Below are positions 1-15,547 of a DNA stretch of 22,047 nucleotides, one piece after another. A program made the translations under genes and the position numbers. Under the pieces are notes generated by a model. It saw only the letters and a list, made by a program, of their open reading frames with translations, ran no database searches and was not told where the DNA came from. Where the stretch lies: the IMG/VR virus record IMGVR_UViG_3300032073_002078, positions 1 through 22,047 of that record. One strand, written 5' to 3'. Numbering within the stretch: position 1 is the stretch's first letter; every line of letters starts with the position of its first letter. The DNA is from a virus.

Positions 1-21
1 TAATACTGCTTCGCTATCCAT
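1..21 (-). CDS. Start of an unidentified gene cut by the window edge
   Basis: An ATG at 21-19 overlaps the TAA stop of the formate dehydrogenase gene in a TAATG arrangement, the same coupling used at other junctions in this window. Only seven codons are visible (MDSEAVL) before the edge. No clear Shine-Dalgarno sequence precedes it. The product cannot be identified, and the call rests on the coupling alone. Confidence 0.35.
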
Positions 22-1217
22 TATTTTTTAAACTTTGTTGCCTCTTCGGAACCGCCTGTTGCTGTTCCTTTTGTATAAGAGTGAGCACCCATACCTGCAA
101 GGTCTCCATCTTTAACAATTAGATATTGATTTCTAATTTCTGAACCATCAAAAAAGCATTCAAGTATTTCTCTTACACCATCTGCATATCTAGTCTGCGC
201 TGATAGTGAAGTACCTGAAGTGTGTGGTGTCATACCGTGATGAGGCATTGTTCTCCATACGTGGTCGTTAGGTGCTGGTTGTGGAAACCATACATCACCT
301 GCGTAGCCACTTAATTGTCCTGACTCTACTGCTCTTGCAATAGCATCCTTATCACAAATCTTTCCTCTTGCTGTATTAATTATGTAAGCACCTTTTTTAC
401 ACTTACTAATTAAATCATCATTAAACATATGTTCAGTTTCAGGATGTAAAGGACAACTTATATTAATTACATCACAAACTTTAACCATATCTTCTACTGA
501 TTCGTGATAGATTAAACCTAATTCTTTTTCTTTTTCTTCTGGCAATCTATGTCTATCAAAGTAATGTAAGTGTACATCAAATGGTTTCATTTTTCTTAAC
601 ATATCATAACCAATTCTACCAGCGGCAATTGTTCCTATATGCATACCTTCTACATCATAAGAACGTTTAACTGCGTCTGCGATATGCCAACCACCTTCGT
701 TAACTATTTTATATTGATTGTGATAATCTCTAACTAGTGCTAGTATCATCATAACAATATGTTCCGCAACACTTCTACTATTACAATAAGTTACTTCAAC
801 TACATCAACTTTATGATCCATAGCCGCTTGTAAATCTACGTGGTCAGAACCAATTCCTGCTGTAATTGCCATCTTTAATTTTGGAGCACTCTCTATTCTT
901 TTTCTTGTTAGATAGTAAGGCCAAAATGGTTGTGAAATGACTACATCTGCGTCAACTAATTCTTTATCTGCTGTACAACCATCAGCGTCTTTATCAGACG
1001 TAACTACTAAAGTATGTCCTGCGTCTTCTAAAAATTTTCTTAATCCTAATTCACCAGAAACACAACCTAATAATTCTCCTGCGTTGAAATCTCTTCCTTT
1101 AGGAGATGGTAATGTCATACCATCTGGATACTTTTCTAATTTTGGTAAGTCTTTGACTGGATATGATTTTGGCATTCCGTCTTTTGGGTCATCATATAAT
1201 ATACATAATATTTTCAT
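21..1217 (-). CDS. fdh: NAD-dependent formate dehydrogenase (D-2-hydroxyacid dehydrogenase superfamily)
   Basis: Oxidises formate to CO2 with reduction of NAD+ to NADH, as a soluble metal-independent enzyme. The 398-residue product is full length and aligns almost without gaps, from memory, to the Pseudomonas sp. 101 enzyme. Known functional residues fall at the same numbers: Pro97 in SQPFWP, Ile122, Asn146 in TYCNS, Arg284 in NTARGK, Asp308 in YAGDVW, Gln313 and His332 in TPHTSGT. The dinucleotide-binding loop is AAGRIG (198-203). Asp221-Arg222 after the second strand predict NAD rather than NADP preference. The C-terminal GAHSYTKGTATGGSEEA segment typical of bacterial enzymes is present. 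The start is backed by AGGAAAG upstream of the ATG. It lies 3 bases after a small phage-type gene and shares its strand and AT-rich codon use, so it looks like a resident auxiliary metabolic gene. It is intact and probably active. Confidence 0.95.
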   Translation of the reverse strand: MKILCILYDDPKDGMPKSYPVKDLPKLEKYPDGMTLPSPKGRDFNAGELLGCVSGELGLRKFLEDAGHTLVVTSDKDADGCTADKELVDADVVISQPFWPYYLTRKRIESAPKLKMAITAGIGSDHVDLQAAMDHKVDVVEVTYCNSRSVAEHIVMMILALVRDYHNQYKIVNEGGWHIADAVKRSYDVEGMHIGTIAAGRIGYDMLRKMKPFDVHLHYFDRHRLPEEKEKELGLIYHESVEDMVKVCDVINISCPLHPETEHMFNDDLISKCKKGAYIINTARGKICDKDAIARAVESGQLSGYAGDVWFPQPAPNDHVWRTMPHHGMTPHTSGTSLSAQTRYADGVREILECFFDGSEIRNQYLIVKDGDLAGMGAHSYTKGTATGGSEEATKFKK

Positions 1218-3024: not shown

Positions 3025-3306
3025 TTATTTTTTCCTTGTTCTCATACTAGATGTTGGTTGGGCACCTCTTACGTGAACCATACCACCCATAGTATTTTCG
3101 TCTTTCTTTTTTTTCGGAGCAGCATTTGTAAAAGGTCTTTGATTCATAGCACTTGTATAATTTGCGTGTAATCCAACACCCCTAACATTTTTACCACCCG
3201 CTCTTTTTTTAGGTGGCACATCACCTAAACTTGCTATAGGTTGTACATTTGAATAGTTTCCTATTCTAACACCTGTTGTACCTATAAATTCTTTAAAACT
3301 TTTCAT
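3025..3306 (-). CDS. Small basic protein with capsid-targeting-like leader
   Basis: A 93-residue, strongly basic, Gly- and Asn-rich protein that is probably disordered. It begins MKSFKEFIGTTG, close to the MKTYQEFIAE leader that sends T4 internal proteins into the prohead, although the Glu expected before the protease cleavage point is missing here. Its ATG overlaps the stop of the upstream gene (ATGA), giving translational coupling. A basic, disordered, late-region protein with such a leader could be a DNA-condensing internal head protein. That role is inferred. Confidence 0.65.
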   Translation of the reverse strand: MKSFKEFIGTTGVRIGNYSNVQPIASLGDVPPKKRAGGKNVRGVGLHANYTSAMNQRPFTNAAPKKKKDENTMGGMVHVRGAQPTSSMRTRKK

Positions 3307-4466: not shown

Positions 4467-4892
4467 CTACACTAACTTAGCGTAGACCTTGGATGTACCG
4501 TTCTTTAAAGTTTCATAACTAACTTCTAAATTTAGACCGCCAGATTTTTTGTGTGATATACCATCATCATTTAAATCAGAACCATCAGTATCTTTCCCAA
4601 ATCTTCCACCAAATTGACTAACTTTCGCACTAACTTTTCCAGATGTTCCTTCCATTGTAACTGGAGAAACAGTTAAACCTATTCGGTTTAGTTTTTCTCT
4701 TAAACTATCTACCGCTTGTTGTGGTTTAATGAATTCTACGTCTGCAATAGAACCTACAAAAGCATTAACTCTATTTAATACTTCTGGATCGGAAATGTTA
4801 TGAGCGCCTAAATTACCATCTTCAACAGCGTTAGATGTAGCTGTGCCAACCATCTTGCCGTCTTCTGTAATATGTTGTTTAAACGTTTTCAT
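4467..4892 (-). CDS. Probable internal head protein with T4-type targeting leader
   Basis: A 141-residue protein whose first residues, MKTFKQHITEDG, strongly resemble the T4 internal-protein leader MKTYQEFIAE. The I-T-E followed by D matches the L/I-x-E rule of the T4 prohead protease gp21. The remainder is soluble and Gly/Ser/Thr-rich, with a central SQFGGRFGKDTDGSDLNDDG stretch whose alternating acidic residues could bind a cation. An EVSYETLKNGTSKVYAKLV beta-type ending follows. The start has GGAAAA upstream. If cleaved as predicted, the mature protein would begin near residue 11 or 12. Function unknown; packaging is an inference. Confidence 0.7.
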   Translation of the reverse strand: MKTFKQHITEDGKMVGTATSNAVEDGNLGAHNISDPEVLNRVNAFVGSIADVEFIKPQQAVDSLREKLNRIGLTVSPVTMEGTSGKVSAKVSQFGGRFGKDTDGSDLNDDGISHKKSGGLNLEVSYETLKNGTSKVYAKLV

Positions 4893-9614: not shown

Positions 9615-10037
9615 TTATTTGAATCTATTATCTCTTTTAAAATTATATGATAAACTATGTCTACTGTATAAATGTCCACCGTGTGTATCAAATACACGGT
9701 TTAATGAGTCCATATACTTTTTGTCTAAAACATTTCCTCTGGCACCTTTTGCTGGAGCATTAACACCAGCCGCCTTTAAAACATCTCCTGTAATTTTATC
9801 TACAAAAGCGTGTATAGCTCTTCTTTGTCCTCGTTCAGTATCCCAAATTTTAATGTACTTGCCACCTATACTAGTAGCTACATCACGTCTTTGGTCTCTA
9901 TATAAATTAGCAAATTGTGGGTGTCTTTTAATTTTTTCCCTAGCAATTTTAAGGTAATCGTCAACCCCTTTTAAAACCATAGCCGAGCTTTCAGCAATGT
10001 ATAGGTTGTGTACGTAATCTTTGAATTTAGTTGCCAT
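9615..10037 (-). CDS. Conserved phage protein with leader-like N-terminus
   Basis: A 140-residue basic protein. The start MATKFKDYVHNLYIAES contains a KFKDY core and I-A-E followed by Ser, resembling a T4 capsid-targeting leader with a gp21-type cleavage point. The central part, with YIKIWDTERGQRRAIHAFVD and then GDVLKAAGVNAPAKGARGN, is a compact domain that I recall from many T4-like marine phages without assigned function. A GAGAGAG site precedes the ATG. It lies 8 bases after the 910-residue gene and 1 base before the modular protein gene. Confidence 0.7.
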   Translation of the reverse strand: MATKFKDYVHNLYIAESSAMVLKGVDDYLKIAREKIKRHPQFANLYRDQRRDVATSIGGKYIKIWDTERGQRRAIHAFVDKITGDVLKAAGVNAPAKGARGNVLDKKYMDSLNRVFDTHGGHLYSRHSLSYNFKRDNRFK

Positions 10038-10045
10038 TTCTCTCT

Positions 10046-12778
10046 CTAAAGTTTCTCAATCATCTTTGCGACTACTTCGTTTAGTTTCGCTTTCCACTCT
10101 TCTTTATAACGTTCCTTATATTTATCTATTACTGAATCTGAAGTTGCCCATTCTTTTACTTCATTTTTAGTTAATTTATCCTCACCAACTTTAGCATCCG
10201 TAGCCTTACCTGGTCGTGATATGTATGTATCAGTAGGTTTTCCACGGTCTTTTGAGTCAACAGGAGGTGCGTCCTCTTTCTCTCCTGGTGTCATTTGCTT
10301 ACAATGATTAGCATAATCAGCACCTATTTCATAACTATCTTTAATTTGTGAGTATGGTTTTGGTACTGGTATTGTTTCAACTGCTTCAAATCCATAATCA
10401 ATATCTAGGTTGTACTCTCTTAACATTGGTTCTTTATCAGCGGCAACTGGAATACAATCCCATATCCAACATTTGTGTAAATTATTATTTGTATCTTCTA
10501 ATACAACATAGTTCGTACCTCTTCGTACTACTTTACCTTGTTTATCTTCTTTAAGATACTTGACCTGGTCTCCGATATTGAATATCATCTCCCTAACGTA
10601 TAGGTCTCTAACTTGTTTCTGTTCAAACTGTCCTAATGTCATAACAGGTTTTGAAATATCTGGTTTATAGTCTTCTCTTATACCCATACCTTTTCTGACC
10701 GCTTTAAACAGTCCATCAACATCTCTAAATTGAGATGGTAGTCCTCTCTTAAATGACGCCACATCACCTTTTTGAGCAGCATCCCTCATCTTACTCGCAC
10801 TCATACCTGAAGCGCCTTCAGCGTCTGGATCACGCTCTCCAGCAGATATAACATCTATTGTTTTAAAGTTATAGTATCCGTGTCTATTTTTCTGGTCGTT
10901 ATACTTTTTAAGTATAGTATCAAACTCTCTTACTCTATCACTACCTACAACAAATTTTAAAATATTATGTCCTTTGTTATATAACATAGTAGCTAAATCT
11001 AAAATCATATTTGTTGTATTGATTTCAATGTTTCTAGCATATTGTGGAAACATCTTTTTCATAAAAGATAATTTTTCTCTAGCAGATAATGGATTCTTTT
11101 TACTATCTTCTGACCTACTGATATAGATTTTATAATTTCTATCTGCTCTTACAACTTTATTAATAAGTTTTTCGTGACCTATTGTAGGTGGATTAAATCT
11201 TCCAAATGTAATTGCAATAGACTTATCAGCAACTGCTTCAGATTTTAAACTATCTATCTCAGCGTCTGTAACTTTATTATCATCTAATATCTCTTTACAT
11301 TTCTTATAGAATTTTAAGTAATGATATTTCTCTAATAACTTATAGACTACATTTTTAGGTAATCTATTTTTAATACTAAACGTTTTAATTTGTTCTGGTG
11401 TCATATCAGAATCAAACGCAGCTCTTCTAGCAGTTAATACATCATCTCCAATATCAACAATATCTTTTATAGATTGTTCAATCTCTTCTAACTTCTCATT
11501 AATCTTTTCTTGTAAGTTTAAAATATCATCTGGTTGTAAATCTTTTAATTCATCATAGTCTATAATATCTCTTTTTAATTCTCCTTTAACTACATCTATC
11601 TCTTGTACCTTTCTTTGATATGCTGACATATATAATTTCATATCAAACGTATAGTCTGCTGGTCTTTTAGTAAATACATTACCTCTATAATCAAATACTG
11701 CGTCTGCTTTATCCTCTTGGTCTTGATGAGTTATAGGATCAGTAATGATGTAATAGTTAATAGGGTGTTGTGTATCAGGTATTAATTTACCATTAATCTT
11801 TTCTGGACTTTTAGCAGATAGATACTTATGAGATAATCTTAATCTTTCTTCTTCTTGTTTATCTACAGGTACATCAAACAGTACATTAAAATCTAAATCT
11901 GCGTCCTTTCTATATCTCTTTGTAAGTATAGAACCTACTAAACTAACTTTTAAAACTGGATATTCTTTACCAAATTCTTTAAGTTGATTGTCAACTATTT
12001 CTCTAACACTAGGTTTAATTCTAGGTGTTTTAGTTTCATAGTCATCAAAAACTCCAGGTGCATATGTATTTCTAGGAGCGTCTATAATACTTTCGTTTAA
12101 TTTGTTTCTGTACATTTTTTCTTTTGTCATCCAAGTTTTTGCAAGATAACTTTTAATTGGCTGCCTCATATATCGTCTAACTAATCTGTCACAGTTTTGT
12201 AAAGTTTGTGACACTAGTTCTTTATCTGACCTATTGTTATCTACTACAATAAAATTTGATTGACCAAATAATCTTTGAAACTTACCTATATTAGATTGTA
12301 CTTTTTCCCAAGATGATTTAACAATATATTCTGGTATAGTTCTACTTCTAATTTGATTTCTTTCTAACGCAACAGGTAATGTTGTGTTAACAAATATCAT
12401 ATAACAATCATAACCTAATGAGTGTAGTTGATTATATTCTGCACTTATTCTTCCATAATCTCTTCCAGTTGCGTCAATAACTAAACCTAATCTACCAGTT
12501 ACATAAGTATCTAATTGTCTTTTTGTTGTACCTTTGGCATTATTTCTTATAATATCTCTAAAATATTTTTCTTGGTCAGGCATTTTATCTGAAAGATTTG
12601 CCTTCTTTAAACCTCTTTCAAATACTTGGTCTGAATTTACAAATTTTAATCCAGAACCTGCAAAAGTATTACTAGCGATAAATGATTTACCACTACCAGG
12701 TCCTCCTGCCATAAAGAAAGCTTTAAATATACCTGGGTCATATAAACCTTCTTGTAATAAAAATTCTTTAAACTTCAT
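10046..12778 (-). CDS. Four-domain enzyme: P-loop kinase, Pol-beta NTase, NMNAT-like, KOW-like
   Basis: A 910-residue fusion protein. Residues 1-10 (MKFKEFLLQE, then G) look like a capsid-targeting leader with an L-Q-E cleavage point. Residues 18-200 form a P-loop kinase with Walker A GGPGSGKS (25-32) and a DATGRD strand end (102-107), in the zeta-toxin/polynucleotide-kinase style. Residues 255-400 carry the Pol-beta nucleotidyltransferase signature, GS (282-283) followed by DADLDF (292-297). Residues 518-700 form an HxGH-type nucleotidylyltransferase with GRFNPPTIGH (526-535) and SASKMR (660-665), most like NMN adenylyltransferases. Residues 732-779 look like a small KOW/SH3 barrel (FNIGDQVKYLKEDKQGKVV). 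The C-terminal 120 residues are Lys-rich. AAGGATGG precedes the ATG, which directly follows the upstream stop. Substrates are not known. NAD synthesis, nucleic-acid end modification or protein modification are all possible. Confidence 0.85.
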   Translation of the reverse strand: MKFKEFLLQEGLYDPGIFKAFFMAGGPGSGKSFIASNTFAGSGLKFVNSDQVFERGLKKANLSDKMPDQEKYFRDIIRNNAKGTTKRQLDTYVTGRLGLVIDATGRDYGRISAEYNQLHSLGYDCYMIFVNTTLPVALERNQIRSRTIPEYIVKSSWEKVQSNIGKFQRLFGQSNFIVVDNNRSDKELVSQTLQNCDRLVRRYMRQPIKSYLAKTWMTKEKMYRNKLNESIIDAPRNTYAPGVFDDYETKTPRIKPSVREIVDNQLKEFGKEYPVLKVSLVGSILTKRYRKDADLDFNVLFDVPVDKQEEERLRLSHKYLSAKSPEKINGKLIPDTQHPINYYIITDPITHQDQEDKADAVFDYRGNVFTKRPADYTFDMKLYMSAYQRKVQEIDVVKGELKRDIIDYDELKDLQPDDILNLQEKINEKLEEIEQSIKDIVDIGDDVLTARRAAFDSDMTPEQIKTFSIKNRLPKNVVYKLLEKYHYLKFYKKCKEILDDNKVTDAEIDSLKSEAVADKSIAITFGRFNPPTIGHEKLINKVVRADRNYKIYISRSEDSKKNPLSAREKLSFMKKMFPQYARNIEINTTNMILDLATMLYNKGHNILKFVVGSDRVREFDTILKKYNDQKNRHGYYNFKTIDVISAGERDPDAEGASGMSASKMRDAAQKGDVASFKRGLPSQFRDVDGLFKAVRKGMGIREDYKPDISKPVMTLGQFEQKQVRDLYVREMIFNIGDQVKYLKEDKQGKVVRRGTNYVVLEDTNNNLHKCWIWDCIPVAADKEPMLREYNLDIDYGFEAVETIPVPKPYSQIKDSYEIGADYANHCKQMTPGEKEDAPPVDSKDRGKPTDTYISRPGKATDAKVGEDKLTKNEVKEWATSDSVIDKYKERYKEEWKAKLNEVVAKMIEKL

Positions 12779-14057: not shown

Positions 14058-14065
14058 TATTTATG
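14058..14065 (-). promoter_or_regulatory. Possible variant late promoter CATAAATA
   Basis: CATAAATAG differs from the T4 late consensus only in the first base. It occurs at the stop codon of the 461-residue gene, about 65 bases before the ATG of the ligase-like gene. The 67-base gap it opens into is unusually long for this window, which favours a promoter. Being inexact, it could be chance. Confidence 0.45.
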
Positions 14066-15446
14066 TACATTCTTTCTCTAACAATTCTTTAAATTCTGGA
14101 TGTAGAGTTCCTGTAAATTGTGGTTGTGATCCGAAGGCACCTTTATATCTTAATTCTAAATTAAATATTTTAACATTACCTCTCTTTAACCACATTTTAA
14201 TTTTAGCTGCTTCTTCAACAGAATCACCTTTAACACTTTCATCCCTCATAACAATTTCCCACTTCTTACCTTTCATTTTTTTCTCAATTCTATGATAGCC
14301 ACAAAGTAAAGTATTAACTTGAAAGTCAACTGAATTGCCTACAGTTACATTACCCTTTGAGGTAACATTACCTACACCTGTTGTCAATTGAAAATCAAAT
14401 TCCGCTTCATCTATATCTTTCTTTTTTAATTTATTGAATAAATTAACTTTTAAAATAACATCAATAAGACCTTCTGCAAATTTTTCAGCATATTCATTCA
14501 TAAGTTTTAATACACCTTGCCAATATTTACTTTTAGAACCACCATATAAAGATTCGTTCATAAACTTTCTCAATTTCCATTGTGTATTTGGTAAATCTCC
14601 TGAGCCATCTTTATTTTTTGCAAATAATTTTTGAATTAAAATTTTATCTGCTGCCTTTTTAATATCAAAGTTATTTTTTATTACTCCTTCACCTTTTAAA
14701 TCAATTAGTTTTATGTTTCCTGTTTTATAAGGATGCTTAATTGTTTTATAAAATATTTCTTTATTGTTTGATGGTAATGAAAAGCCTTTTATTTTTATAA
14801 TTTTATTGGTAATTGCTTGCTTTAATCTATCAGCAAAAAATTTATACTTAAACTCATCAACATCTTTCATTAATTTATTAAAGGTTGAATCACCTTCTAT
14901 AAGTCTATCAAATGCTTTATTAATAAGTGGTGGTGGGGTAGCCTTTTGAGTTGATTTTTTCTTTAAAGAAATGCCGTAATATTTTTTTACTCTTGCTTTA
15001 GCAGAATTATTTTCAACCATTATATCAGCAGAATTATATTGATATCCTCCACCTTCAGGTAAAGAAAACTTTTCAATCTCACTAGGCCATTTAGAGCCAG
15101 TCATAAAAACTTTTTTAGTTGGTTGATTGTCGCCTTTTTTTCTAGCAAAACCACGAATACCTAATGCAGCTGATATACCTACAGCAAAATCGCTTAAGAT
15201 TTTATCATTACTTGAATCAAGTATTTTCATAAACCCTTGTTCTTGCGAACCATCTGCAAAAACAACCTGGCCAACTTTAGCTTTAGGTCTACCAATTTTC
15301 ATAAGTGATTTAGCTTCTTCTAGTTTTTCAACTAAATCATCCCTATCTAATTTGTTTGAATTAAAACCTACTTGTAATTTTTTTAGTTCATCTGTAGTAA
15401 ACATTAATGCTGCCGCTGTACAGATTTCTGAAGCTTCGTATGCCAT
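14061..15446 (-). CDS. Large unknown protein with a possible PD-(D/E)XK-type site
   Basis: A 461-residue soluble protein that I do not recognise with confidence. Residues 139-162 read SADIMV (Asp141), then, after a Lys-rich loop, YYGISLKKK (156-164). Asp followed some 18 residues later by S-L-K on a strand is the arrangement in some PD-(D/E)XK endonucleases, where Ser replaces the Glu. The N-terminal 100 residues are helical. The C-terminus carries strand-rich segments such as VKIFNLELRYKGAFGSQPQF. It has an exact late promoter and a GAGAGAG site 3-9 bases from the ATG, so it is a late product. Nuclease function is a hypothesis; a structural role is equally open. Confidence 0.72.
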   Translation of the reverse strand: MAYEASEICTAAALMFTTDELKKLQVGFNSNKLDRDDLVEKLEEAKSLMKIGRPKAKVGQVVFADGSQEQGFMKILDSSNDKILSDFAVGISAALGIRGFARKKGDNQPTKKVFMTGSKWPSEIEKFSLPEGGGYQYNSADIMVENNSAKARVKKYYGISLKKKSTQKATPPPLINKAFDRLIEGDSTFNKLMKDVDEFKYKFFADRLKQAITNKIIKIKGFSLPSNNKEIFYKTIKHPYKTGNIKLIDLKGEGVIKNNFDIKKAADKILIQKLFAKNKDGSGDLPNTQWKLRKFMNESLYGGSKSKYWQGVLKLMNEYAEKFAEGLIDVILKVNLFNKLKKKDIDEAEFDFQLTTGVGNVTSKGNVTVGNSVDFQVNTLLCGYHRIEKKMKGKKWEIVMRDESVKGDSVEEAAKIKMWLKRGNVKIFNLELRYKGAFGSQPQFTGTLHPEFKELLEKECT

Positions 15447-15471: not shown

Positions 15472-15547
15472 TGGTGCCCAAAGAAGGAATTGAACCTCCA
15501 ACCTACTGATTACAAATCAGTTGCTCTACCAATTGAGCTATTTGGGC
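15472..15547 (-). tRNA. tRNA-Thr (anticodon UGU)
   Basis: A 76-base tRNA including an encoded CCA. The acceptor stem GCCCAAA pairs perfectly with TTTGGGC, followed by discriminator A and CCA. The D arm is GCTCAATTGGTAGAGC. The anticodon stem ACTGA/TCAGT holds the loop TTTGTAA, giving anticodon TGT. The T arm GGAGG/CCTTC (one G-T pair) holds TTCAATT. It reads ACA threonine codons, which suit an AT-rich genome. The 5' end overlaps the stop codon region of the preceding protein gene by 10 bases, and the 3' end touches a late promoter. Confidence 0.96.

Follow-up and report, generated by a model that had tools for sequence, protein, structure and literature searches.

A predicted head-cargo polyprotein that strings together kinase, nucleotidyltransferase and adenylyltransferase modules in a T4-like marine phage

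We analysed a 910-residue open reading frame (ORF) on the minus strand of the 22,047-base viral record IMGVR_UViG_3300032073_002078, referred to in full as the window. The encoded protein is probably a polyprotein that a T4-like marine phage packs into its head as cargo, cuts with a gp21-type protease and ejects with the DNA. Expressed late, it would be drawn into the prohead core by its first ten residues, acting as a capsid-targeting sequence (CTS). The protease would remove this leader at LLQE/G (after E10; slashes mark cut positions) and cut a second time at KLNE/S (after E229), and the head would retain a basic 25.2 kDa kinase (isoelectric point, pI, 9.8) and a 78.8 kDa protein made up of the nucleotidyltransferase (NTase), adenylyltransferase and KOW-like parts. 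Both pieces would then leave the head together with the DNA, to act ahead of all phage gene expression, most likely in RNA-end repair or NAD restoration after host defences act. We infer the packaging and cleavage of the window protein and all of its substrates, as well as, by analogy with T4, the ejection. The reading is built on the conservation of leaders and joint, on module exchange among related loci, on the confinement of the fused form to one clade and on a gp21 gene in a contig that carries an identical protein.

A scan of viral contigs returned 79 related loci. Neither chance nor faulty assembly explains the ORF, because 21 of the 79 contigs carry the same three-part fusion and in three related contigs the best segment is 100% identical to the window protein. 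The coordinates (10046-12778) and length proposed in a first-pass annotation of the sequence were borne out, with the gene running from 12778 to 10046; read on the plus strand, this interval is full of stops. The nearest isolate in the phage collection was Pelagibacter phage HTVC008M, annotated as Kyanoviridae (45% identity over 52% of the protein).

Internal proteins (IPs) of T4, as described in passages of PMC9026906, carry an N-terminal propeptide of 10-19 residues that follows a hydrophobic-x-Glu leader rule; the first 10 residues of IPIII are enough for packaging, with targeting depending mostly on residues 4 and 7 and processing on residues 8 and 10, and the CTS is removed by gp21 (also stated in part of PMC10229621). 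The window protein begins with a propeptide of this type (MKFKEFLLQE/G). Separate kinase genes at related loci have leaders such as MKQFKQIIQE, MKSYSQILTE, MKTFNYKQFLIKE and MKYRQLMAVLQE, directly followed by G-(V/L/I)-Y-D; the 49 kinase ORFs whose 5′ end is intact yielded 15 distinct strings and, when these were cut at the Glu, 13 leaders, every one of which ended in [LI]xE. The NTase module starts with S-I-I-D or S-V-I-D; of the 34 distinct strings that precede it, 33 end in Glu (P1) and one ends in Asp. P3 was hydrophobic in all 34 (20 strings with L or I, the other 14 with F, V or M), the background composition of the window protein being 13.8% L+I, 26.7% LIVMF and 6.6% E. What precedes the NTase may be its own leader (MKSFNQFKE, MLEKFKDFIKE), a kinase tail (KLNE, LKLNE, MLPE, VMGE) or a phosphatase tail (TFKE, NIQE, SMNE). 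Within the fused clade the joint Glu was always kept, though the residues before it varied (KLNE, KLSE, LKLNE, MLPE, VMGE), and six more fused loci outside the 34-string count (L018-L022 and L027, four of which were read) had KLNE/S, KLNE/A or KLSE/S. The joint of the window protein is KLNE/S, and the confidence of its predicted model collapses both at the leader (residues 1-12) and at the joint (226-235). Leaders were also found on the adenylate kinase gene (MKSLKQFLE or MKTLKQFLE) and, in some relatives, on DUF6267, the family of the neighbouring gene (MQGFQDYLTE, MQKFQDYLVE), while in L056 and L057 MKNFTEYLAE lies inside the C-terminal part, in front of a module that HTVC008M encodes in a gene of its own (gp131).

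When the 79 loci were sorted by architecture, kinase, NTase and adenylyltransferase were fused in 21, and in 29 a separate kinase gene resembling polynucleotide kinase (PNK) lay beside an NTase-adenylyltransferase gene. An adenylate kinase gene took this neighbouring place in four loci (Pfam ADK, E 5e-35 for L083), and in another four a PAP2 phosphatase was fused ahead of the NTase (Pfam E 8e-10 and 1e-8 in the two fusions tested), one of these also with a kinase gene. The remaining loci had no adjacent kinase (10), too little upstream sequence (7), a cut 5′ end (3) or no NTase motif (1). That a phosphatase or an adenylate kinase can take the place of the kinase is an argument for modules that work independently. 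In a tree of the adenylyltransferase domain (53 rows), all fused forms fell in one 13-row clade (support 100/97) nested among split forms, which indicates a single derived clade; its two other rows were a 5′-cut and a partial sequence, and the PAP2 fusions stood at three separate places. A search of 50,697 phage records gave 526 matches for the whole protein (E 1e-5), almost all of those listed lying over the adenylyltransferase, 30 for the kinase alone (E 1e-3), none for the NTase alone at E 0.01, and 469 for DUF6267 (E 1e-5). Kinase and adenylyltransferase are about 50 kb apart in phage Melnitz (near 66 kb and near 15 kb, respectively).

The three nucleotide-transfer signatures that the first-pass annotation had called intact are so, according to Pfam matches, fold matches and conservation in relatives. 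Pfam placed AAA_33 on residues 22-161 (E 1e-10) and NTP_transf_2 on residues 264-315 (E 3.3e-6), both over cut-off, and CTP_transf_like on residues 523-627 (E 5e-4; 20.6 bits, just under the cut-off of 21). The NTase-type matches were NTP_transf_2 and Polbeta, and none of the Pfam matches listed was named RlaP. In PHROGs, residues 498-839 matched cytidyltransferase families and the N-terminus matched kinase families, with no match for the NTase of the window member; one family, PHROG 455, has DUF6267 and this adenylyltransferase joined in one protein elsewhere. A profile search of the NTase against solved structures returned chance-level rows only. In a 51-row alignment, all 36 rows with letters at the NTase motif had GS, the first Asp of DADLD was kept in 35 and the second and third in 36; the examined columns of GRFNPP-T-GH and SASKMR were invariant (36/36), and the Walker A Lys was present in 21 of 23 rows. 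AGGPGSGK was invariant (17/17) in a kinase-only alignment. Three of the four domains named in the first-pass annotation, the kinase, NTase and adenylyltransferase, were upheld; the KOW-like part, for which no Pfam family matched, is drawn from five predicted strands (about residues 738-777).

An AlphaFold2 model built from 51 aligned sequences had a mean predicted local distance difference test score (pLDDT) of 72.0 and a predicted template modelling score (pTM) of 0.33, with pLDDT below 50 in segments 1-12, 226-235, 374-378, 395-404, 440-447, 706-717, 780-820 and 843-867. Fold searches with this model, a check the first-pass annotation had proposed, recovered both the kinase and the adenylyltransferase folds. 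Over residues 15-206 the closest match was the Clostridium thermocellum polynucleotide kinase 4gp7 (Foldseek E 3.7e-6; Z 17.5, root-mean-square deviation (rmsd) 2.7, 165 residues), tied with the O-phosphoseryl-tRNA kinase 3adc (Z 17.0); other matches were T4 Pnk (Z 14.3) and zeta toxin (Z 14.2). Profile matches were 4gp7, including the lid region (E 0.0025), and zeta toxin (E 2.3e-4). As modelled, the kinase has a P-loop fold of PNK type with a Walker A motif and lid arginines; by profile or fold, zeta toxin and tRNA kinases come about as near to it as PNK does. The same kinase family also occurs in Agrobacterium phage Atu_ph07 (L089 gp053-gp055), within a 778-aa protein after VTE/GVND; the part before the kinase and two neighbouring genes have in common a YRGM-type pattern, which may be that of an ADP-ribosyltransferase.

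Adenylyltransferases of the HIGH superfamily have a Rossmann-like fold, an (H/T)xGH motif and a C-terminal motif of S-x-x-x-x-R type. Residues 518-693 matched the phosphopantetheine adenylyltransferase (PPAT) 3otw (Z 14.1, rmsd 2.9, 149 aligned), NadD entries were among the Foldseek matches (E 1.1e-4), and the invariant TIGH and SASKMR fit the motifs of this class. The best NCBIfam match was the NadR NMNAT domain (E 1.9e-6; 27.4 bits against a cut-off of 341), and the domain scored over no named NMNAT, NadD or CoaD cut-off (CoaD 20.6 of 103 bits). Its class (NMNAT/NadD/PPAT type) is clear, and the scores with the named models were too far under their cut-offs to assign a substrate. Phage records give this domain the name cytidylyltransferase.

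The presence of a cyanophage adenylyltransferase in virions is already in print. Portions of PMC10665884, including its Table 3, list 52 proteins of S-CREM2 virions identified by mass spectrometry, among them gp154 (cytidylyltransferase; 3 peptides, 11.2% coverage) and, two genes on, gp156 (6 peptides). The former is homologous to window residues 521-775 (31% identity, E 3e-31) and starts with MKNFSSFLTEA; the latter was typed as a Pol-beta NTase via its S-N03 homologue (80.5% identical; NTP_transf_2 6e-4, just under cut-off). We tried three leader patterns on the 219 S-CREM2 proteins. With the T4-register pattern, five of nine matching proteins were in the virion list vs 47 of 210 others (p 0.037), and p was 0.0026 when listed structural and endolysin proteins were excluded. 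A narrower pattern with Phe at position 7 gave six matches, five in virions (p 0.0032; non-structural 0.00017), and is not independent, having been chosen after the N-termini were seen. Leader-bearing proteins were modestly enriched in the virion list, in a pattern-dependent way. Separately, S-CREM2 gp12 (L103:7704-10313, minus), a Cas9-like protein reported in virions, has leader-like LRFASFMAE/AA at residues 17-25 and not at the annotated start, with residue 17 encoded by CTG; it may be capsid cargo whose start codon is wrongly placed.

The protease gp21 (Peptidase_S77) was encoded in all four isolate genomes. Peptidase_S77 was found in two of eight contigs bearing relatives, L053 and a 67 kb contig with an identical protein; the six without a match were mostly fragments, and no gp21-type protease was present in the 22 kb window. 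By analogy with T4, the capsid protein cut sites would be YLAE/A near residue 51 of the major capsid protein in the 67 kb contig and FLGE/I near residue 52 in HTVC008M.

A number of observations weigh against processed head cargo. The loose first pattern gave 19 matches, six in virions (p 0.28; non-structural 0.026), with no enrichment over all S-CREM2 proteins. The strict T4-register pattern matched only 6 of the 13 kinase leaders and 5 of the 17 NTase leaders listed, and just 2 of 180 HTVC008M proteins (18 of 198 annotated features left out), and both the kinase (MIPFILKE) and the adenylyltransferase (MKTLKELLRKK, no Glu) of that phage are off-pattern. Homologues in RaK2 and Deifobo have no leader, that of the DUF6267 neighbour in the window is without the Glu (MFSFKGFTTND), and the Glu of IRE702, a possible extra cut site, is unconserved (15 of 35 rows). 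L054 and L055 form the sole NTase group with Asp at the module boundary (VLKD/S), and Asp at P1 is reported to block T4 leader processing (part of PMC9026906). S-CREM2 peptide coverage is thin (3 and 6 peptides), gp156 has no detectable homology to the window NTase, and the S-CREM2 authors, in portions of PMC10665884 that discuss virion delivery and NMNAT, warn that co-purification is possible. The overlap of LxE/IxE sites with low-confidence segments (3 of 12 sites, little above the length expectation) was set aside and not used as evidence.

The first-pass annotation had suggested that the fusion processes one substrate stepwise. A single multifunctional cytosolic enzyme of this sort, left uncut, could act on RNA ends with a PNK, an end-adding NTase and an adenylyltransferase, or could make NAD with a NadR-like kinase and an NMNAT. 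All active sites are conserved, 29 of the 79 loci have the kinase and NTase-adenylyltransferase as adjacent genes and another 21 have them fused, and the top NCBIfam match of the adenylyltransferase is to NadR, which has an NMNAT-type domain and a P-loop kinase in one chain; in other large phages, likewise, RlaP Pol-beta NTases act alongside RNA ligases and kinases (both in part of PMC7824862). We nevertheless regard such an enzyme as unlikely. The case for a one-substrate pathway from gene linkage is weakened because the parts occur apart, the kinase being a separate gene in those 29 loci and its slot also occupied by adenylate kinase or PAP2 phosphatase; moreover, among the matches listed PNK and zeta toxin are closer to the kinase than the NadR kinase is, the model has no fixed domain arrangement, and a protease motif is kept at the joint. 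The stepwise proposal is not supported on these grounds, and the contrary outcome that the first-pass annotation had itself named, unrelated cargo modules split by protease sites, is close to the comparative-genomics result. Several parts could still share a substrate, as the genes mostly lie side by side and more than one of them could serve in RNA repair or in an NAD pathway.

It is a rather improbable variant of head cargo that the N-terminal leader alone is removed and the fused chain delivered whole: the T4 leader rule fits best at the N-terminus, and 14 of the 34 strings, with F, V or M at P3, fall outside strict [LI]xE, whereas the Glu always kept in the fused clade despite varied preceding residues, together with the drop in pLDDT, argues for cleavage at the joint. 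A purely structural role of the enzyme folds, in a prohead core or scaffold protein, would suit the position of the gene in a late-type block with leader-like starts; catalytic residues that are nearly invariant, and needless for such a role, make this very hard to credit.

For a cleaved head-cargo polyprotein, RNA repair (PNK, NTase, ligase; PMC7824862) and NAD restoration (a NadR-like pair; PMC7824862 and PMC9503650) are the likely uses, and both fit equally well. We suggest tentatively, leaning somewhat towards doubt, that T4-like marine phages have a swappable cargo slot in which enzymes are joined at prohead-protease sites behind one leader and separated at maturation. The contents would form a pre-emptive repair kit (polynucleotide kinase or phosphatase, NTase, adenylyltransferase and the ligase-like DUF6267 neighbour) against tRNA-cleaving or NAD-draining defences. 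T4 internal proteins, Alt and polyvalent proteins are known kinds; our search of open-licence papers found no description of the fusion or of leader-bearing enzyme cargo in marine T4-like phages. A T4-like phage enzyme polyprotein with an exchangeable slot, and with joints keeping the capsid-protease motif, is new as far as searches of this literature show. The internal proteins of SAR11 and picocyanobacteria phages are hardly studied. If the reading is true, enzymatic polyproteins would be added to T4-type head cargo, a leader-type hydrophobic-x-Glu at a domain joint would offer a simple rule for spotting cargo in these very abundant phages, and the leader pattern would make many unnamed marine phage proteins testable as injected effectors. 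It would also show that a multi-domain fusion need not imply one pathway.

Table 1. Positions in the window of the ORF, its predicted parts and two neighbouring genes (residue numbers refer to the 910-aa protein).
Feature	Position	Strand	Basis
Whole ORF, 910 aa + stop, 105.2 kDa, predicted head-cargo polyprotein	10046..12778	-	ORF calling
Leader MKFKEFLLQE, residues 1-10, predicted capsid-targeting, cut after E10 (LQE/G)	12749..12778	-	Kinase-leader pattern; pLDDT <50 at 1-12
P-loop kinase, polynucleotide-kinase type, residues 11-229, 25.2 kDa and pI 9.8 if excised	12092..12748	-	Pfam AAA_33; 4gp7 fold match
Walker A GGPGSGKS, residues 25-32	12683..12706	-	Motif and conservation
Predicted internal cleavage site LNE/S, residues 227-230, kinase/NTase joint	12089..12100	-	Upstream-string conservation; pLDDT <50 at 226-235
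Pol-beta type NTase and helical region, residues 230-515	11234..12091	-	Pfam NTP_transf_2; GS and DADLD conserved
NTase catalytic motif GS...DADLD, residues 282-296 (GS 282-283, DADLD 292-296)	11891..11935	-	Motif and conservation
HIGH-superfamily adenylyltransferase (NMNAT/NadD/PPAT type), residues 519-700	10679..11224	-	PHROG 395 E 4e-68; 3otw Z 14.1
GRFNPPTIGH, residues 526-535	11174..11203	-	Motif and conservation
SASKMR, residues 660-665	10784..10801	-	Motif and conservation
Possible extra cleavage site IRE/D, residues 700-703, unconserved	10670..10681	-	Glu in 15/35 rows
KOW-like small beta domain, residues 731-778	10445..10588	-	Strands in predicted model only
Mostly low-confidence linker and C-terminal helix, residues 779-910	10049..10444	-	Predicted model
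DUF6267 neighbour, 404 aa	12779..13993	-	Pfam E 2.8e-124
DUF7717/PHROG 818 neighbour, 140 aa, leader-like start MATKFKDYVHNLYIAE/S	9615..10037	-	Pfam, PHROGs

The DUF6267 neighbour has motifs KWDGAP, PEGYV and VKLVDR, which we take to be ligase-like (motifs I, IV and V of ATP-dependent ligases) and which the fold search did not confirm; the columns of KWDG, PEGYV and VKLVD were invariant or nearly so. The model of DUF6267 was weak (pLDDT 67.6) and gave no clear Foldseek or VIA-align match; T4 Rnl2, at Z 5.0, did not stand out from the noise, nor did an archaeal DNA ligase, at Z 4.5, and a profile search of solved structures returned no match. We keep the ligase as a motif-based idea. Beside DUF6267 lies a PHROG 3060 protein (14061-15446, minus) with counterparts in HTVC008M (gp126) and Melnitz (Melnitz_15); its pattern TKTPKTD(F/I)xIGNxxxSLKxG is conserved in these two isolates and may be that of a PD-(D/E)xK nuclease. 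A tRNA-Thr (TGT; 15472-15547, minus) stands between replication-type genes and the cargo block. Small proteins starting with MKSFKEFIGTTG and MKTFKQHITEDG (3025-3306 and 4467-4892, minus) are possible further head cargo. At 21-1217 (minus) the window encodes a 398-aa NAD-dependent formate dehydrogenase (NCBIfam NF005750, E 2e-196, 652 bits vs a cut-off of 329), likely a metabolic gene carried by the phage.

Like T4 IPI-III and Alt, the window protein has a short leader of similar pattern, a gp21-type protease encoded in related phages, a hydrophobic-x-Glu site and a homologue reported in virions; unlike the T4 IPs, which are single small proteins, it strings together several enzyme modules with an internal joint that keeps the cut motif, and its packaging and cutting are predicted. 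With polyvalent proteins (as presented in part of PMC5512222) it has in common at least two unrelated catalytic domains in one phage chain; those proteins combine many such domains, Pol-beta NTases and kinases among them, and are predicted to be virion-borne. Their NTases are mostly in firmicute mobile elements, however, with processing ascribed to a built-in MPTase rather than to a separate capsid protease, and the window protein had no Pfam match to MPTase, DdrB-like ParB, ArdC-N or MuF, which not every polyvalent member need carry. Cyanophage PHROG 395 proteins (S-CREM2 gp154 and P-SSM4 PSSM4_155) have the same adenylyltransferase with a KOW-like tail, a locus beside DUF6267 and a leader (MKNFSSFLTEA or MKKFSAFLKEA), but not the kinase and NTase. 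The PNK-type kinase, Pol-beta NTase and ligase-motif neighbour recall phage RNA repair sets of PNK, RNA ligase and RlaP NTase, which the relevant part of PMC7824862 does not describe as head cargo; the window NTase matched NTP_transf_2, with no RlaP among the Pfam matches listed, and DUF6267 is a ligase candidate by its motifs. As in NadR, an NMNAT-type domain and a P-loop kinase stand in one chain, although here their order is reversed, an NTase lies between them, the score is far under the NadR cut-off and the kinase is of PNK type. NAD-related enzymes have been argued, in part of PMC9503650, to be often packaged in myoviruses.

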